A DNA stretch of 64,000 nucleotides from contig SUXD01000001.1 in NCBI GenBank assembly GCA_015061145.1, forward strand, positions 62,001 through 126,000, written 5' to 3'. This DNA comes from Bacteroidales bacterium (GTDB lineage Bacteria; Bacteroidota; Bacteroidia; Bacteroidales; Paludibacteraceae). The position numbers were made by a program, and so were the translations under genes. How positions within the stretch are numbered: the stretch's first letter is position 1; each line of letters opens with the position of its first letter. Of the stretch, positions 4,703 through 11,438 are shown piece by piece. The notes beneath the pieces were generated by a model, which was not told where the DNA came from, made no database searches, and saw nothing but the letters and a program-made list of their open reading frames with translations.

Positions 4703-5479
4703 TTATTCCCCTAAAGCTGCGAACAGGCGTTCTGCCGCTTGGGCAGCATTCCCGTTTTCTTCGTCGAGCAATTGTACGAATTTTGAACCTATGATTGCTC
4801 CGTTGGCGTTGGCGCATGCGCTTTCAAAAGTTTGTTTGTTGCTGATGCCGAAGCCTATCATTGTAGGGTTTTTCAGGTGCATGGCATGTACTTTGTTAAA
4901 GTACCGCTGTTTTTGCTCGTCGAACGATTTTTGAGCACCGGTGGTGGCGGCTGACGATACCATGTAGATGAATCCGTTCGTATTTTCGTCAATCAGGCGT
5001 ATCCGCTCTTCGCTCGTTTCGGGGGTGATGAGCATAATGATGCGTAGGTCATATTTCTCGGCAATAGGTTTGAATTCATTCTGATAATCGGCAAATGGCA
5101 GGTCGGGGATGATGACGCCGTCGATGCCTATTGCCTGGCATTTTTTACAGAAATTCTCGAATCCGTATTGAATGATAGGGTTCAGGTATCCCATCATGAC
5201 GAGCGGGATGTTCACGCTTTCGCGTATGTTTTCGAGCTGGGCGAAGAGTTTTTTGAGACTCATGCCGTTTTTAAGGGCTTTGGTGGTAGCCGATTGTATG
5301 ATGGGACCATCTGCCATGGGGTCGCTGAATGGAATGCCGATTTCTATCATGCCCACTCCTTTCTTCTCGAGGGTTTTGATAATTTCTGCGGTGTTTCCCA
5401 ATACGGGTGCTCCGGCACAGAAGTACAGACTGAGCAGTTTTTGCGGATTTTTACTGAAAAGTTGGTTGATTCTATTCAT
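4703..5479 (-). CDS. trpA: Tryptophan synthase alpha chain
   Basis: Cleaves indole-3-glycerol phosphate to indole and glyceraldehyde 3-phosphate; indole is channelled to TrpB. The 258-residue protein has the usual TIM-barrel length and the signature [17 protein letters not shown], giving catalytic acids Glu46 and Asp57. The C-terminal GFGISN segment is the usual phosphate-binding turn. It is the last gene of the trp operon and its start overlaps the end of trpF by 8 bases, so the two are translationally coupled. A terminator hairpin follows 23 bases after the stop. Confidence 0.97.
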
Positions 5480-6116
5480 GATTTCTGATTTTTAGTATAA
5501 ATGATTTTAATTTTTCAATGTCTTTTACTGCAGGTGCGGTCTCGAATTTTGAGTTGATGTCCACTCCTGCGAATCTTGGATGCAGCATGACGGTTTTAAT
5601 TTGTTCGGCGTTTTCAGGACCGATGCCGCCGCTTAGCAAGAAAGGTGTCTCTCCTGTATATTCATCGATGAGTTTCCAGTCGAAAGCTTTGCCGTTTCCG
5701 CCTCTTTGCTGTCCTTTGGTGTCGAAAAGGAAAAAATCACAATGATTTTCATAATTTTCGGTTTGTTTCAGGTCGTCGCTTGCGGCTATCCCGAATGCTT
5801 TGATAAGTGAAACGCTGTTGCCGTTTTGTCTCAATGCCGTTCTTAACTTTTCGCAAAAGACAGGCGATTCGTCGCCGTGCAGTTGAATGCCGTGCAAGTG
5901 GTATTCTTTTTGCTTGTGAACGATTTCTTCAATTGTGGCGTTCACAAATACACCGATTTTCTTCTTCCGTTGGGGCATGTACGACGGCATTTGCGCAACA
6001 TGGCGCTTTGATTCGGGATAAAAGATGAATCCCATCCAATCGAAATCCAGCGAATCAGCATTGCGGATATTTTCGCTGTTGCGCATGCCGCATACTTTTA
6101 TGATGAATTGGTTCAT
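5472..6116 (-). CDS. trpF: Phosphoribosylanthranilate isomerase
   Basis: Catalyses the Amadori rearrangement of N-(5'-phosphoribosyl)anthranilate to CdRP in tryptophan synthesis. The 214-residue protein has the N-terminal KVCGMRN motif with catalytic Cys9, the GIQLHGDE segment, and [11 protein letters not shown] and GVDINSKFE near the C-terminus with the catalytic Asp. It lies between trpC (6-base gap) and trpA (8-base overlap). Confidence 0.96.
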
Positions 6117-6122
6117 TTTTTT

Positions 6123-6923
6123 TCAGTTTTCAATTTGTTGTATAAACCTTTGTAACGCTTTGCCGGGATTGTCTTCTTTCATAAAGTTTTCTCCGATAAG
6201 GAATCCTTTGTAGCCGACTTTGCGGAGCGATTTCACCATGTCGGGCGAACTGATGCCGCTTTCGCTGACAAGTGTAAATTCTTTCGGCAGTTTGTCAATA
6301 ATGTCGAATGACTTTTTCACATCCGTGTGGAACGAACCAAGATTGCGGTTGTTCACGCCCAGCATGTCTGTTTCTGGCGACAGGTAGTCCAATTCTTTTT
6401 CGTCGTGAATTTCCAGTAGCACTTCCAATCCCAGCAGATGCGCCTGATGCAGCAAATGGCGACAAGTGTCTTTTGTAAGACATGCGGCGATGAGCAGCAC
6501 GGCATTTGCACCTGCTTTGCGCGCTTCCCACAGCTGATATTCGTCAATAATGAAATCTTTGCGAAGTATGGGTATGTGAATGTCGTCGCGCACTTTCTCG
6601 ATGAATCCAAGGTTGCCGCCGAAATAGTCGCGGTCGGTGAGTATGGAAATGGCAGAAGCGCCATTTTTGGCGTAGGCAGGTGCAATTTCTTCGACGCTTG
6701 AATTTTCGTGAATCCAGCCTTTTGACGGCGATTTTCGCTTGAATTCGCTGATGATGCCAGAATGGCTTTTCTCCAAACTTTCTTTCATTGAAAATTTTGG
6801 CATTCTTTCTTTGCTTATAATGTCATCCACAATTTTTTGCAAGGCATTGAGTGGCATCTGCGCCTTGCTGATTTCCACTTCCTGCCGTTTTGTGCGGATG
6901 ATGCGGTCTAAAATGTCTTCCAT
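6123..6923 (-). CDS. trpC: Indole-3-glycerol phosphate synthase
   Basis: Closes the indole ring of CdRP to give indole-3-glycerol phosphate. The protein is 266 residues when started at MEDILDRII (6923), just after the trpD stop; the longer frame to 7010 overlaps trpD and has no family homology. Visible family motifs are EFKRKSPSKGWI with the active-site Lys, ILRKDFIIDEYQ, LLEIHDEKEL, GVNNRNL and LVSESGIS. Separate trpC and trpF genes here contrast with the fused TrpCF of enterobacteria. Confidence 0.96.
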   Translation of the reverse strand: MEDILDRIIRTKRQEVEISKAQMPLNALQKIVDDIISKERMPKFSMKESLEKSHSGIISEFKRKSPSKGWIHENSSVEEIAPAYAKNGASAISILTDRDYFGGNLGFIEKVRDDIHIPILRKDFIIDEYQLWEARKAGANAVLLIAACLTKDTCRHLLHQAHLLGLEVLLEIHDEKELDYLSPETDMLGVNNRNLGSFHTDVKKSFDIIDKLPKEFTLVSESGISSPDMVKSLRKVGYKGFLIGENFMKEDNPGKALQRFIQQIEN

Positions 6924-6928
6924 AGCGT

Positions 6929-7933
6929 TTATTTGTTGAGGTCGATGTATCTTTGCAGCACTTGTGCGGCTTTCCCGCTTTTCAACGATTCGTCGGCAAT
7001 GGCGATGCAATCTTCAATCTCTTTTTCGGGCTCCATTACCTGTATGGCGAAGGCGGCGTTGGCTATGACGGCGTTGTTTTGCGCTTCGGTTCCTTTGCCA
7101 GTCAGCACATTGTCAAATATCCTTTTGGCGTCTTCTGCAGTTTCTCCGCCGAAAAGTTCGCTTTGCGCGGCTGTTTTCATGCCGATTTCCTTGGGTGTAT
7201 AAATGCGTTCGCTGTGGTTGGTGATGACCTTAAAGTCGGAAGTGAGTGAAATTTCGTCGTATCCGTCGGTGCTGGTTACAATGCCGAATTGTATTCCCAT
7301 TCGTTGGTAAACCTGCTGATAGAGCCTCATTTGCGCCAGATTGGCTACTCCGAGCAGTTGGTGATTTGGGCGGCAAGGATTGACTAACGGTCCGAGCAGG
7401 TTGAAACACGAGGCGGTGCCCAAGGCGCCGATTTGTTTGCGTGCAGGTGCCGCCGATTTCATGCCGTTGGCAAAGAGCGGAGCATGCAGGTAGACGAATC
7501 CGCATGTCTCCAAGCAATGTTTCAAGTGGGAGTTGTCGTTGTTGAACTTGATGCCATGCGCTTCCAATACATTGCTTGCCCCCGAAACGCTCGATGCGGC
7601 ATAATTGCCGTGTTTGGTGACTTTGTATCCTGCTCCTGCAACAACGAAACATGCAGCTGTTGATATGTTGAAAGTGTTTTTCCCGTCGCCGCCGGTGCCC
7701 ACAATGTCTATCGTGTCGTATGGCGTAAAGTCGATGGCTTTTCCGGTGGCCAGCAATCCGTCTCGTAATCCCAGTATTTCATCAACTGATACGCCGCGCA
7801 TCTGTATTCCCGTCAGAATGGCTGAAATCTGTTCGTCGCTGTATTTGCTTTCAGTTATCTCTATCAGCAGTTCTTTGGCTTCCGCTCTGCTGAATTTCTC
7901 TTGAGATGTTATTTTTCTTAAAATGTTTTCCAT
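6929..7933 (-). CDS. trpD: Anthranilate phosphoribosyltransferase
   Basis: Transfers the phosphoribosyl group of PRPP to anthranilate. The 334-residue protein is of normal length and has the PRPP-binding glycine motif GTGGDGKNTFNIST, followed by KHGNYAASS and the NLLGPLVNP segment conserved in the family. It is free-standing, not fused to TrpG. It sits 50 bases after trpG and 5 bases before trpC. Confidence 0.97.
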   Translation of the reverse strand: MENILRKITSQEKFSRAEAKELLIEITESKYSDEQISAILTGIQMRGVSVDEILGLRDGLLATGKAIDFTPYDTIDIVGTGGDGKNTFNISTAACFVVAGAGYKVTKHGNYAASSVSGASNVLEAHGIKFNNDNSHLKHCLETCGFVYLHAPLFANGMKSAAPARKQIGALGTASCFNLLGPLVNPCRPNHQLLGVANLAQMRLYQQVYQRMGIQFGIVTSTDGYDEISLTSDFKVITNHSERIYTPKEIGMKTAAQSELFGGETAEDAKRIFDNVLTGKGTEAQNNAVIANAAFAIQVMEPEKEIEDCIAIADESLKSGKAAQVLQRYIDLNK

Positions 7934-7983
7934 GTTCTTCGGTTTTTAAATTGAATGAGTTTAAACGGTTGGAAATTAAACAA

Positions 7984-8556
7984 TTAAAAATTTTCTTTTC
8001 CCACCCAGTTTGTAATTATATTCTTCCCTTCGGGTGTCAATACCGATTCAGGGTGAAACTGTACGCCCCTTATGTCGTATTGCTTGTGTCGCAACGCCAT
8101 TACTTGTCCTTCTTCGCTGATGGCGGTAATTTCAAGGCATTCGGGAATGGAATCCGCTTCTACGACCCATGAGTGGTAGCGTCCGACGGCTATTTCGGAC
8201 GGAATACCCTTGAAAAGGTAATCTTCTTTGATGATTTGAATGGTCGACTGCACACCGTGAAACACTTTGTCGAGGTTTACGAGTTTTCCGCCGAAAAACT
8301 CTCCGATAGCCTGTTCGCCGAGACAGATGCCGAGAATCGGCTTCTTGCCGGCGTATTCGGCGATTACCTGCATGAGCAGTCCTGCTTCTGACGGGATGCC
8401 AGGACCTGGACTTAGCATGATTTTGTCGAAAGGACGGAGATCTTCGAGTTTAAACTTGTCGTTTCGGTAAACTGTGATTTCCGCTCCCGATTCTTTTAAG
8501 AGATGATGTAAGTTATAAGTGAAACTGTCGTAGTTGTCTATTAGTGCTATTTTCAT
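7984..8556 (-). CDS. trpG: Anthranilate synthase glutamine amidotransferase component
   Basis: Supplies ammonia from glutamine to TrpE. The 190-residue class I amidotransferase has the nucleophile Cys78 in GICLGEQ and the His168/Glu170 pair in QFHPES. The residue after CLG is Glu rather than the common His; that position is not part of the catalytic triad, so activity is expected. It could also serve p-aminobenzoate synthase, as in some bacteria, but its place directly after trpE supports the tryptophan role. Confidence 0.95.
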   Translation of the reverse strand: MKIALIDNYDSFTYNLHHLLKESGAEITVYRNDKFKLEDLRPFDKIMLSPGPGIPSEAGLLMQVIAEYAGKKPILGICLGEQAIGEFFGGKLVNLDKVFHGVQSTIQIIKEDYLFKGIPSEIAVGRYHSWVVEADSIPECLEITAISEEGQVMALRHKQYDIRGVQFHPESVLTPEGKNIITNWVGKENF

Positions 8557-8573
8557 AATTGTCGATTTTTGCG

Positions 8574-9998
8574 TTACATATTTTCTGCTGTCATGATAGC
8601 TTTTCGGAGTGCGCCTAATTTGTTGTTCACTTCCTGCAATTCATATTCTTCGTCACTTTTGGCCACAATGCCGCCACCGGCTTGAAACCACAATTCGTTG
8701 TTGCGCGAAACAAAGGTTCGTATAGTGATGGCTTGGTTCAGCGATTTGTCGAACCCGATGAATCCGATGCATCCGCCGTAAGCGCCTCTGTTGTGCGGCT
8801 CGTATTCGCTGATGAGTTCCATGGCTCTTACTTTAGGCGCGCCACTCAGCGTGCCGGCAGGAAAGGTGTCGATGAAACTTTTGATGGGATCTGCGTCTTT
8901 GTTCAACGTTCCGCTCACTCTGCTGACCAGGTGTATCACATGGCTGTAGTACTGCAGTTCTTTGTAAAATTCCACCGTTACATGATGGCAGTTTCTGCTG
9001 AGGTCGTTGCGCGCTAGGTCCACGAGCATCACATGTTCTTCGTTCTCCTTGGGGTCGTTGCGCAGATATTCCGCATTGCGGGCGTCTTGCTCAGAGTTCC
9101 CTGTGCGTTTGGTGGTGCCGGCAATTGGGTCGATGTATGCTTTGTATTCGGGGTGGTCGTTGTCGCCGATGTTCTCTATGCGGCAGTGTGTTTCGGGTGA
9201 ACTGCCGAAGATGCGGAATCCGCCGAAATCAAAATAGAAAAGATAGGGCGACGGGTTGATGCTTCGCAGCACTCTGTAGAGTTTGAAATCGTCGCCTTCG
9301 AAGCGTTGTACGAAACGGCGGCTCAATACGATTTGAAACACGTCGCCTCTTTTGCAGTGCGCAATGCCTTTTCTGATGTTCTCTTTGTGCTGTTCGTCGC
9401 TCAACGGGCTGCTTACTTCTCCTATGGGATGAAAGTCGTATGTCGTCAGCTGAGGTTGGCGGATGATGCGCTCTATTTCTTCAAGTCTGCTTTCTTCGTT
9501 TTCCGACAACAGTTCGTTGATGACGAGTGAGTTTCTGAAATGGTCGAAGACAATGACAAATTTATATAGGATATAAATCATGTCGGGGGCGTCGTTTTTG
9601 CTCATCGTTTCGTCTTTTACATTGATATTTTCGAAATATCTTACCGCATTGAACGAAGTGTAGCCGAAAAGTCCGCATGAGCGTGCGTTTTCGCCATCGA
9701 CGGAGAACGACTGCAGAAATGAATTGATGAGATGTTCCGAACGGTGTTGCTCGTCGATGAGGAGTTCCGTGCTGCTGCCGTCGGGGAATACGCATTTACC
9801 TATACCGTGGGATATCGACACATGCCCGATGGGCTGAATGCCAATGAAAGAACGTCCGTTCTCGCCTCCGTGATAATCGGAACTTTCCATCAGAGCGCTT
9901 TGTGGGTACAGGTCGCGTAGGTGCAGATAGGTGCTGACGGGCGTACACAGGTCTGCCAGCATTTTTTTTGATTTTACATGGTATTTGAATCGTGTCAT
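8574..9998 (-). CDS. trpE: Anthranilate synthase component I
   Basis: Makes anthranilate from chorismate. The 474-residue protein contains the chorismate-binding core with IFGSSPETH, DPIAGTTKRT, AGTLSGAPKVRAMELI and RGAYGGCIGFIG. Near residue 40 it has ALMESSD, resembling the LLESS motif in which Trp binds for feedback inhibition, so the enzyme is likely inhibited by tryptophan. It is the second gene of the operon, 12 bases after trpB, and is followed by trpG after 17 bases. Confidence 0.97.
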   Translation of the reverse strand: MTRFKYHVKSKKMLADLCTPVSTYLHLRDLYPQSALMESSDYHGGENGRSFIGIQPIGHVSISHGIGKCVFPDGSSTELLIDEQHRSEHLINSFLQSFSVDGENARSCGLFGYTSFNAVRYFENINVKDETMSKNDAPDMIYILYKFVIVFDHFRNSLVINELLSENEESRLEEIERIIRQPQLTTYDFHPIGEVSSPLSDEQHKENIRKGIAHCKRGDVFQIVLSRRFVQRFEGDDFKLYRVLRSINPSPYLFYFDFGGFRIFGSSPETHCRIENIGDNDHPEYKAYIDPIAGTTKRTGNSEQDARNAEYLRNDPKENEEHVMLVDLARNDLSRNCHHVTVEFYKELQYYSHVIHLVSRVSGTLNKDADPIKSFIDTFPAGTLSGAPKVRAMELISEYEPHNRGAYGGCIGFIGFDKSLNQAITIRTFVSRNNELWFQAGGGIVAKSDEEYELQEVNNKLGALRKAIMTAENM

Positions 9999-10010: not shown

Positions 10011-11204
10011 TTATTTGTTAGTGTTTTTGTTGTAAGCAAGGTATGTTTCCAAATCCTTGTCGCCTCTTCCGCTGACAGTAAGAACAACGACATCCGTTGG
10101 CTCAAATTTCACTTTCTTCAAGGCGCCTAGCGCATGTGCCGATTCGATAGCGGGTATGATGCCTTCTAGACGTGTCAGTTCAAATGCTGCTTCCATAGCT
10201 TCATCATCGTTGATTGCGAGCACGGTTGCGCGGTGTTCTTTGGCCAGGTTGGCGTGAATCGGCCCGATGCCGGGATAGTCCAGTCCTGCTGAAATGCTGT
10301 ATGGTTCCACTATTTGCCCGTCTTCATTCTGCATCACCAGCGTTTTGCTTCCGTGCAGAATGCCTAGCGTTCCGCATTGAATGGTGGCTGCTGTATAACC
10401 AGAATCGACACCTTTCCCGCCGGCTTCGGCCAATACAATTTTTACATTTTCATTGTCAATGTAGTGATAGATTGTGCCAGCTGCATTACTTCCGCCTCCT
10501 ACGCAGGCAATGAGGTAATCTGGGTTTTCGCGGCCCTCCTGTTCTTTCAGCTGCCATTTGATTTCTTCGCTGATGACGCTCTGAAGACGTGCCACCATGT
10601 CGGGATAGGGATGAGGTCCTACGGTAGAACCGATGACATAGAACGTGTCGGAAGGGTGGCAGCACCAGTCTCTGATGGCTTCGTTAGTGGCGTCTTTAAG
10701 CGTCATGTTGCCGCTCGTTACGGGAAACACTTCGGCTCCAAGCATTTTCATACGCTCTACATTGCTGTGCTGGCGTTTTACGTCAGTGGCGCCCATATAC
10801 ACGCGGCAGGGGAGGTTCATCAATGCGCAGACTGTGGCGGTTGCCACTCCGTGCTGACCAGCTCCGGTCTCGGCGATGATACGTTTTTTTTCAAGTAGCT
10901 TGGCAAGTATCACTTGACCGAGGGCATTGTTTATTTTATGCGCTCCGGTGTGATTCAAGTCTTCTCTTTTCAAGTATATCTTGCATCCGTATTTTTCGCT
11001 CAATCGTTTGGCGAGATAGAGCGAAGAAGGGCGGCCGGCATAGTCGCGCAGCAACTTTCTGAATTCTTGCTGAAAAGTGTCGCTCTCGATTACTCTCAGG
11101 TAGTTTCTCTTTAAATCCTCTACGGTTTTGTACAGAATTTCGGGGATGTATGCACCGCCAAATTCTCCATAGAATCCGTTTTGATCTACATGAAATGATT
11201 TCAT
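10011..11204 (-). CDS. trpB: Tryptophan synthase beta chain
   Basis: PLP enzyme that condenses indole with serine to tryptophan. The 397-residue protein has KREDLNHTGAHKINNALGQ with Lys90 as the PLP Schiff-base residue, the phosphate-binding CVGGGSNAAG loop and the C-terminal VVLTVSGRGDKD. It is of the TrpB1 type that pairs with TrpA. It is the first structural gene and is separated from the promoter by a leader peptide and a terminator hairpin, so the whole operon is under attenuation. The order trpBEGDCFA puts trpB far from trpA. Confidence 0.97.
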   Translation of the reverse strand: MKSFHVDQNGFYGEFGGAYIPEILYKTVEDLKRNYLRVIESDTFQQEFRKLLRDYAGRPSSLYLAKRLSEKYGCKIYLKREDLNHTGAHKINNALGQVILAKLLEKKRIIAETGAGQHGVATATVCALMNLPCRVYMGATDVKRQHSNVERMKMLGAEVFPVTSGNMTLKDATNEAIRDWCCHPSDTFYVIGSTVGPHPYPDMVARLQSVISEEIKWQLKEQEGRENPDYLIACVGGGSNAAGTIYHYIDNENVKIVLAEAGGKGVDSGYTAATIQCGTLGILHGSKTLVMQNEDGQIVEPYSISAGLDYPGIGPIHANLAKEHRATVLAINDDEAMEAAFELTRLEGIIPAIESAHALGALKKVKFEPTDVVVLTVSGRGDKDLETYLAYNKNTNK

Positions 11205-11239: not shown

Positions 11240-11272
11240 AAAAAAAGACCCGTCGTTGTTGTTCGACGGGTC
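11240..11272 (-). terminator. Attenuator terminator hairpin in the trp leader
   Basis: On the minus strand a 9-bp stem (11264-11272 with 11247-11255, loop of 8) is followed by seven U residues at 11240-11246. It lies between the leader peptide stop and the trpB start, where a terminator makes sense only as an attenuator. The 5' arm plus loop can instead pair with leader sequence around 11326-11336 (GUUGU and ACG with ACAAC and CGU), a candidate antiterminator. Confidence 0.85.
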
Positions 11273-11300
11273 TCCTTTATTGATATTATTATTTATTTTT

Positions 11301-11387
11301 TTATTCAGTGATAAGGACAGGCTGGCGTCTCACAACATTTTGTTCTGAGTTCTGCCACCACCAATATGTAAGATTCAACATGTTCAT
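11301..11387 (-). CDS. trpL: trp operon leader peptide with three consecutive Trp codons
   Basis: A 28-codon frame starting ATG at 11385-11387 (an internal ATG at 11379-11381 is an alternative) encodes MNMLNLTYWWWQNSEQ and a short tail, ending in TAA. Three UGG codons in a row at 11355-11363 are far above expectation for a random short frame. AAGGA lies 4 bases upstream of the first ATG, a better ribosome site than most genes here have. Promoter upstream and a terminator hairpin downstream make this a control peptide: ribosome stalling at UGG when charged tRNA-Trp is scarce would favour the antiterminator. It is too short to be found by ordinary gene callers. Confidence 0.88.
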   Translation of the reverse strand: MNMLNLTYWWWQNSEQNVVRRQPVLITE

Positions 11388-11406
11388 TGTCCTTGTTTTG
11401 ATGTTG

Positions 11407-11438
11407 CAAATGTAGTGTGTTGTTTTTTAATTGCAAAA
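11407..11438 (-). promoter_or_regulatory. Promoter of the trp operon
   Basis: On the minus strand TTTTG (11434-11438) and TACATTTG (11407-11414) are separated by exactly 19 bases, matching the Bacteroidota consensus TTTG-N19-TAnnTTTG. Transcription would start near 11400, about 13 bases before the leader peptide ATG. Confidence 0.85.

Follow-up and report, generated by a model that had tools for sequence, protein, structure and literature searches.

Attenuators of trp operons

The trpL leader of E. coli is the textbook ribosome-mediated attenuator, and control of this kind requires a fast-starting ribosome that follows close behind RNA polymerase. In Bacteroidetes, the cis-regulatory motif Bacteroid-trp (RF01692) was described by Weinberg et al. 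in 2010 (PMC2864571), and its structure has been likened to that of the E. coli trp leader (PMC6414381). A transcriptome paper on a flavobacterium also reports strong clues that amino-acid operons are attenuated through leader peptides (PMC9723704). The novelty for the phylum implied in a preliminary description of the locus studied here is contradicted by these reports. In the openly licensed literature, we found no experimental test of Trp attenuation in Bacteroidetes; such tests may exist in subscription papers. Actinobacterial trp attenuators likewise combine leaders harbouring double or triple UGG codons with alternative hairpins before trp operons, but they belong to another phylum and are built on a different pairing core, gGCC-rGCy-GGCC (PMC1262725).

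With regard to Bacteroidales, we describe below a leader upstream of trpBEGDCFA which very probably acts as a ribosome-mediated transcription attenuator and represents a divergent member of the Bacteroid-trp kind. The kind is already known in the phylum, and this copy carries two lineage-specific changes. It resembles E. coli trpL in its Trp-codon leader, in the alternative pairings 1:2, 2:3 and 3:4, and in its predicted response to a masked ribosome. It differs in that the operon begins with trpB, in having no usable Shine-Dalgarno sequence, and in that its frame runs through segment 2, whereas that of E. coli stops before it (trpL sequence).

The trp operon and its leader region

The analysed stretch of 64,000 nucleotides (the window) comes from the 2.1-Mb draft genome of a gut Bacteroidales bacterium whose nearest named relatives, as judged from TrpB, are Paludibacteraceae metagenome-assembled genomes (MAGs) recovered from the faeces of horses and the rumen of yaks. 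The operon order is trpB-E-G-D-C-F-A, the genes after trpB spanning 4703 to 9998 on the minus strand, and radA lies upstream in divergent orientation.

10011-11204, minus strand: trpB, first gene of the operon (TIGR00263, 572.7 bits, cut-off 392)
8574-9998, minus strand: trpE (best family match, TrpE model)
7984-8556, minus strand: trpG (best family match, TrpG/PabA model)
6929-7933, minus strand: trpD (best family match, TrpD model)
about 6123-6923, minus strand: trpC (best family match, TrpC model)
5472-6116, minus strand: trpF (best family match, TrpF model)
4703-5479, minus strand: trpA (best family match, TrpA model)

The elements of the leader, all upstream of trpB, are as follows.

11407-11438, minus strand: Bacteroidota-type promoter, TTTTG (11438-11434), N19 and TACATTTG (11414-11407), exact match
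11301-11387, minus strand: leader peptide frame MNMLNLTYWWWQNSEQNVVRRQPVLITE, 28 codons, stop UAA at 11303-11301, recognised from the reading frame and the Trp-run leaders of relatives
11355-11363, minus strand: UGG UGG UGG, three consecutive Trp codons (codons 9-11)
11341-11349, minus strand: segment 1, CUCAGAACA, partner of segment 2 according to covariation in relatives
11326-11337, minus strand: segment 2, UGUUGUGAGACG, with the conserved core GUYGURAG; its alternative partners are segments 1 and 3
11258-11268, minus strand: segment 3, CGUCGAACAAC, upper part of the ascending arm of the terminator together with the loop, antiterminator partner of segment 2
11240-11272, minus strand: intrinsic terminator with a 9-bp GC-rich core GACCCGUCG/CGACGGGUC (11272-11247), an 8-nt loop and U7 (11246-11240)

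The promoter, the 28-codon frame with its three consecutive UGG codons and the 9-bp terminator before trpB, as proposed in the preliminary description, were all recovered. The promoter is the sole exact match in the window, with 0.02 expected in shuffled sequences, and a TAnnTTTG-type box is seen 5' of the leader in close relatives too; transcription would be expected to start at about 11401 on the minus strand. The predicted terminator stem extends beyond the 9-bp core by flanking A-U pairs, and its 3' end lies about 35 nt 5' of the trpB start codon. The leader transcript folds at -47.4 kcal/mol compared with -27.8 kcal/mol in shuffles (z -5.7), none of the 200 shuffles being as stable. The triple UGG alone represents weak evidence, since TGGTGGTGG occurs six times in the window, and only a Trp run that is framed, positioned and conserved counts as evidence.

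The AAGGA sequence that the earlier account had taken for a ribosome-binding site was rejected as such: it was not seen before the leader AUG in close relatives, and Bacteroidia ribosomes do not use Shine-Dalgarno sequences (PMC9976891). In other respects, AAGGACA (11388-11394, minus strand), 5' of the leader AUG, is complementary to UGUCCUU (11314-11320, minus strand) in leader codons 23-25. AAGGA may instead belong to an outer helix in the minimum free energy (MFE) fold, a predicted pairing that would hide the leader start when the RNA is free of ribosomes.

Relationship to the Bacteroid-trp family

The RF01692 model aligns to the window end to end, from the AUG to the terminator arm, but with 25.5 bits it does not reach the gathering cut-off of 49 (E 1.2 when 451 bases are compared with all families). 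This score was rejected as stand-alone proof, being at the noise level of the genome, where an unrelated match at a glycosyltransferase-like locus on contig 5 obtains 26.5 bits. The element is assigned to the Bacteroid-trp kind because of its synteny, its Trp frame and its conserved helices, and not because of the Rfam score. Like RF01692, the leader lies before trp genes in a member of the Bacteroidota, its close relatives being named as Paludibacteraceae or Bacteroidales. A short frame places Trp codons ahead of a stem and at its base; the stem that follows the Trp codons (1:2) is formed from a conserved GUCGUAAG-type strand, and a terminator arm is found at the 3' end. In contrast with RF01692, the leader stop of the window is situated beyond segment 2 and not inside it, and segment 3 corresponds to the ascending arm plus loop.

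The RF01692 cut-off is passed at orthologous loci in Bacteroides (up to 107 bits), Parabacteroides and Coprobacter, and the score falls off through the family, with only 11 of 101 family genomes above the cut-off. The model therefore under-covers this Bacteroidales family, and annotation pipelines relying on it would under-report the attenuator. The proteobacterial Trp_leader model of Rfam gave no match to the window leader up to E = 10, and the resemblance to E. coli trpL does not extend to any detectable sequence similarity.

A structured leader with a terminator upstream of a Trp operon could also belong to a riboswitch or a T-box-like RNA that senses tryptophan, the short frame remaining untranslated, all the more so as leader translation is itself a prediction. 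Yet no such family matches at gathering score or appears among the weak Rfam matches, the Trp run lies in frame behind an AUG, and the stop is fixed in segment 2 in most relatives, which makes tryptophan sensing by the RNA itself extremely improbable.

Conservation of the Trp-run leader before trpB

To place the leader in a wider context, trpB orthologues from 101 family genomes and from named genomes were collected, giving 111 loci with some duplicates between the collections; many of these relatives are MAGs. In 107 of the 111 Bacteroidales loci, a mini-frame with a Trp run lies no more than 450 nt from trpB. Mini-frames with two adjacent Trp codons occur in 105 of the 111 stretches of 330 nt preceding trpB, compared with a chance level of 0.025 per 330 nt in the rest of the same loci. 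The four loci devoid of a Trp-run frame within this distance include L023, where the available upstream sequence is just 29 nt long, and L022, where an RF01692 match over the cut-off is found farther upstream; no such frame was detected within 450 nt of trpB in L008 and L058. The Trp codons are kept in relatives, while the other leader residues drift. Judging from this comparative evidence, nearly all trp operons in the sampled Bacteroidales would be under ribosome-mediated attenuation.

The genus g20 (L014, L016, L017 and L018) carries WRWW leaders with a long C-terminal extension, and the GUYGURAG strand is absent from them; these leaders may employ a different antiterminator.

Competing helices

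Of 101 distinct leaders, 97 carry the GUYGURAG strand, or a close variant with at most two mismatches, 3' of the Trp codons, and the core of segment 2 in the window (GUUGUGAG) matches it without mismatch. Concerning the 1:2 helix, the pairing between the UGG region and GCCAGCC put forward in the preliminary description is present in the MFE fold, but the conserved helix is instead CUCAGAACA:UGUUGUGAG, immediately 3' of the UGG codons, which forms a hairpin of -7.7 kcal/mol in the window. Its pairing reads CUUAC..GUAAG in most genera and CUCA..UGAG in the lineage of the window. The proposed 2:3 pairing of GUUGU..ACG with CGU..ACAAC does exist and is longer than claimed, comprising GUUGU/ACAAC, a tandem G.A, GACG/CGUC and a short distal extension. 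This duplex amounts to -15.4 kcal/mol, and comparison with shuffles of segment 2 gives p = 0.02, a significance that is modest on its own.

Across relatives, the strands of segment 1, segment 2 and the terminator change in step: at position 6, the combination is U:A:U in 49 cases, C:G:C in 14 and U:G:C in 19. In 83 of 97 leaders, segment 2 pairs more strongly with the loop and descending arm of the terminator, and in 12, the window among them, with the ascending arm and loop.

Folding in the presence of a masked ribosome

Folding was performed with and without a ribosome on the UGG codons, using a masked footprint of 29 nt and a transcript grown to the terminator loop; the footprint and the start site are assumptions. 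The 2:3 helix of the window formed only when the ribosome was stalled on the Trp codons, with P(2:3) reaching 1.00 for an A site at Trp10 or Trp11 and 0.70 at Trp9, and 0.00 without a ribosome, with a ribosome at codon 20 or at the stop. After the addition of 4 nt of the descending arm, the values for Trp9, Trp10 and Trp11 were 0.03, 0.96 and 0.99, the helix being lost with the A site on Trp9. Under the same masking rule, 97 relatives displayed a median P(2:3) of 0.0001 when free, 0.76 when stalled and 0.00 at the stop, and P(2:3) exceeded 0.5 in 87 of the 97 when stalled and in none at the stop. The E. coli trpL control, with the transcript grown to the loop, behaved alike (0.07 free, 0.73 stalled, 0.07 at the stop). 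In silico, mutually exclusive 1:2, 2:3 and 3:4 helices are thus set by the position of the ribosome, as in this control.

Once the transcript is complete, folding favours the terminator whatever the ribosome state, again as in E. coli; the switch must therefore be kinetic, and equilibrium folding cannot settle it. The same outcome, together with the strength of the terminator in isolation, would suit a terminator that is constitutive or under protein control, whether by Rho or by an antiterminator protein, in which case the Trp-rich peptide would be incidental. We regard this as quite improbable in view of the Trp codons conserved amid drifting residues and of the complementarity of segment 2 to two partners, maintained in step. 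The best explanation remains the ribosome-mediated trp attenuator announced in the preliminary description, with Trp codons, competing helices and terminator conserved before trpB across Bacteroidales. The outcome which that description named as refuting, Trp codons and hairpins not being conserved in relatives, was thus not observed.

Proposed mechanism

In the course of events that we infer, transcription would begin at about 11401 and a ribosome, coupled to the polymerase, would initiate the 28-codon leader. When charged tRNA-Trp is scarce, the ribosome would stall on Trp10 or Trp11 with its footprint over segment 1, leaving segment 2 (GUUGUGAGACG) to pair with segment 3 as it emerges, so that the terminator would form too late and transcription would read through. 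When tryptophan is ample, the ribosome would pass through segment 2 and be released at the UAA; segment 2 would then be occupied or re-paired with segment 1, segment 3 would be free, and the terminator would halt transcription before trpB. The leader frame and terminator would probably in this way switch the trp genes off when tryptophan is plentiful. In a phylum devoid of Shine-Dalgarno initiation, such leaders make the coupling of transcription and translation testable with existing laboratory strains of Bacteroidota.

Lineage-specific changes

The stop codon lies exactly inside segment 2 (GUCGUAAG being read UCG UAA) in 69 of 101 distinct leaders, and no more than 10 nt from the start of segment 2 in 87 of them. 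The window and its close relatives (L003-L006, L034 and L035) have GUUGUGAG as segment 2, read in another frame as Val-Val-Arg, and their stop codon follows the first base of this segment by 27 to 33 nt (+33 in the window versus +4 in most relatives). The stop is displaced likewise in a few other genera (L009, L101 and L108) and probably also in L029, where the script chose a different motif. A ribosome released at such a stop would be located past segment 2 and not on it; according to masked folding, segment 2 can then pair again with segment 1, and termination would thus still be favoured.

The displaced stop raises the question of whether an ancestral attenuation has become degenerate in this lineage, weakened or lost, with the leader now read past segment 2. 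The core pairing of segment 2 is indeed weaker in the window than the median (-7.8 versus -11.4 kcal/mol). However, seven distinct leaders from two genera retain the shifted form with the Trp run, the 1:2 helix and the terminator intact, the 2:3 duplex reaches -15.4 kcal/mol when the flanking GACG is counted, and masked folding still switches; we consider degeneration very improbable. An evenly balanced proposal is that Trp attenuators have been repeatedly re-engineered in the family: in the lineage of the window, the stop would have left segment 2 and the antiterminator partner would have shifted from the loop and descending arm to the ascending arm, and in relatives most of which lack the trp operon, a second type with a different segment 2 would control trpB2. 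Such leaders would constitute a natural series on how the switch depends on the position of the stop and the geometry of the antiterminator, in a phylum without Shine-Dalgarno initiation.

Trp leaders before trpB2

Weak RF01692 matches were repeatedly encountered just 5' of trpB2, which codes for a TrpB-like enzyme (PRK12391). Among 33 trpB2 upstream regions that were read, 20 possess a Trp-run leader with a terminator downstream of it (L116-L124, L129, L131, L132, L134, L142, L143, L146, L147 and L149-L151). These leaders, such as MLRELKNIWWWLLS and MNNFCNTYFWRWLGSVVINDWV, point to a second type of Trp-leader attenuator, predicted from sequence. Segment 2 is of the type GGUGGA or GGUAAACGA, complementary to the terminator loop plus an arm. 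In most of the 20, the terminator has a complementary strand 3' of the Trp codons (for instance, GGUGGA with UCCACC), with a shuffle p of at most 0.05 in 14 of the 20. They match RF01692 only under the cut-off, if at all, and are therefore left uncovered by annotation at that threshold.

The trpB2 of the window genome (L115, G000:C32:67700-70200; trpB2 at 801-2165) is separated from the frame before it by only about 120 nt and has no Trp leader, and none is found before trpB2 in the genomes of genus g4, which carry the operon leader. The congener G029 (81% complete, trpB not detected) carries the trpB2 leader. Overall, 17 of the 20 trpB2 leaders belong to genomes in which trpB was not detected, and 7 of the 13 regions without such a leader belong to genomes with trpB (Fisher p = 0.03, relatedness being ignored). 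These leaders find a parallel in one actinobacterial species with attenuators before both trpB1EDGC and trpB2A (PMC1262725). Finally, G040 has no recognisable leader at trpB (L008) but has one at trpB2 (L129), and regulation may there have passed from one gene to the other.
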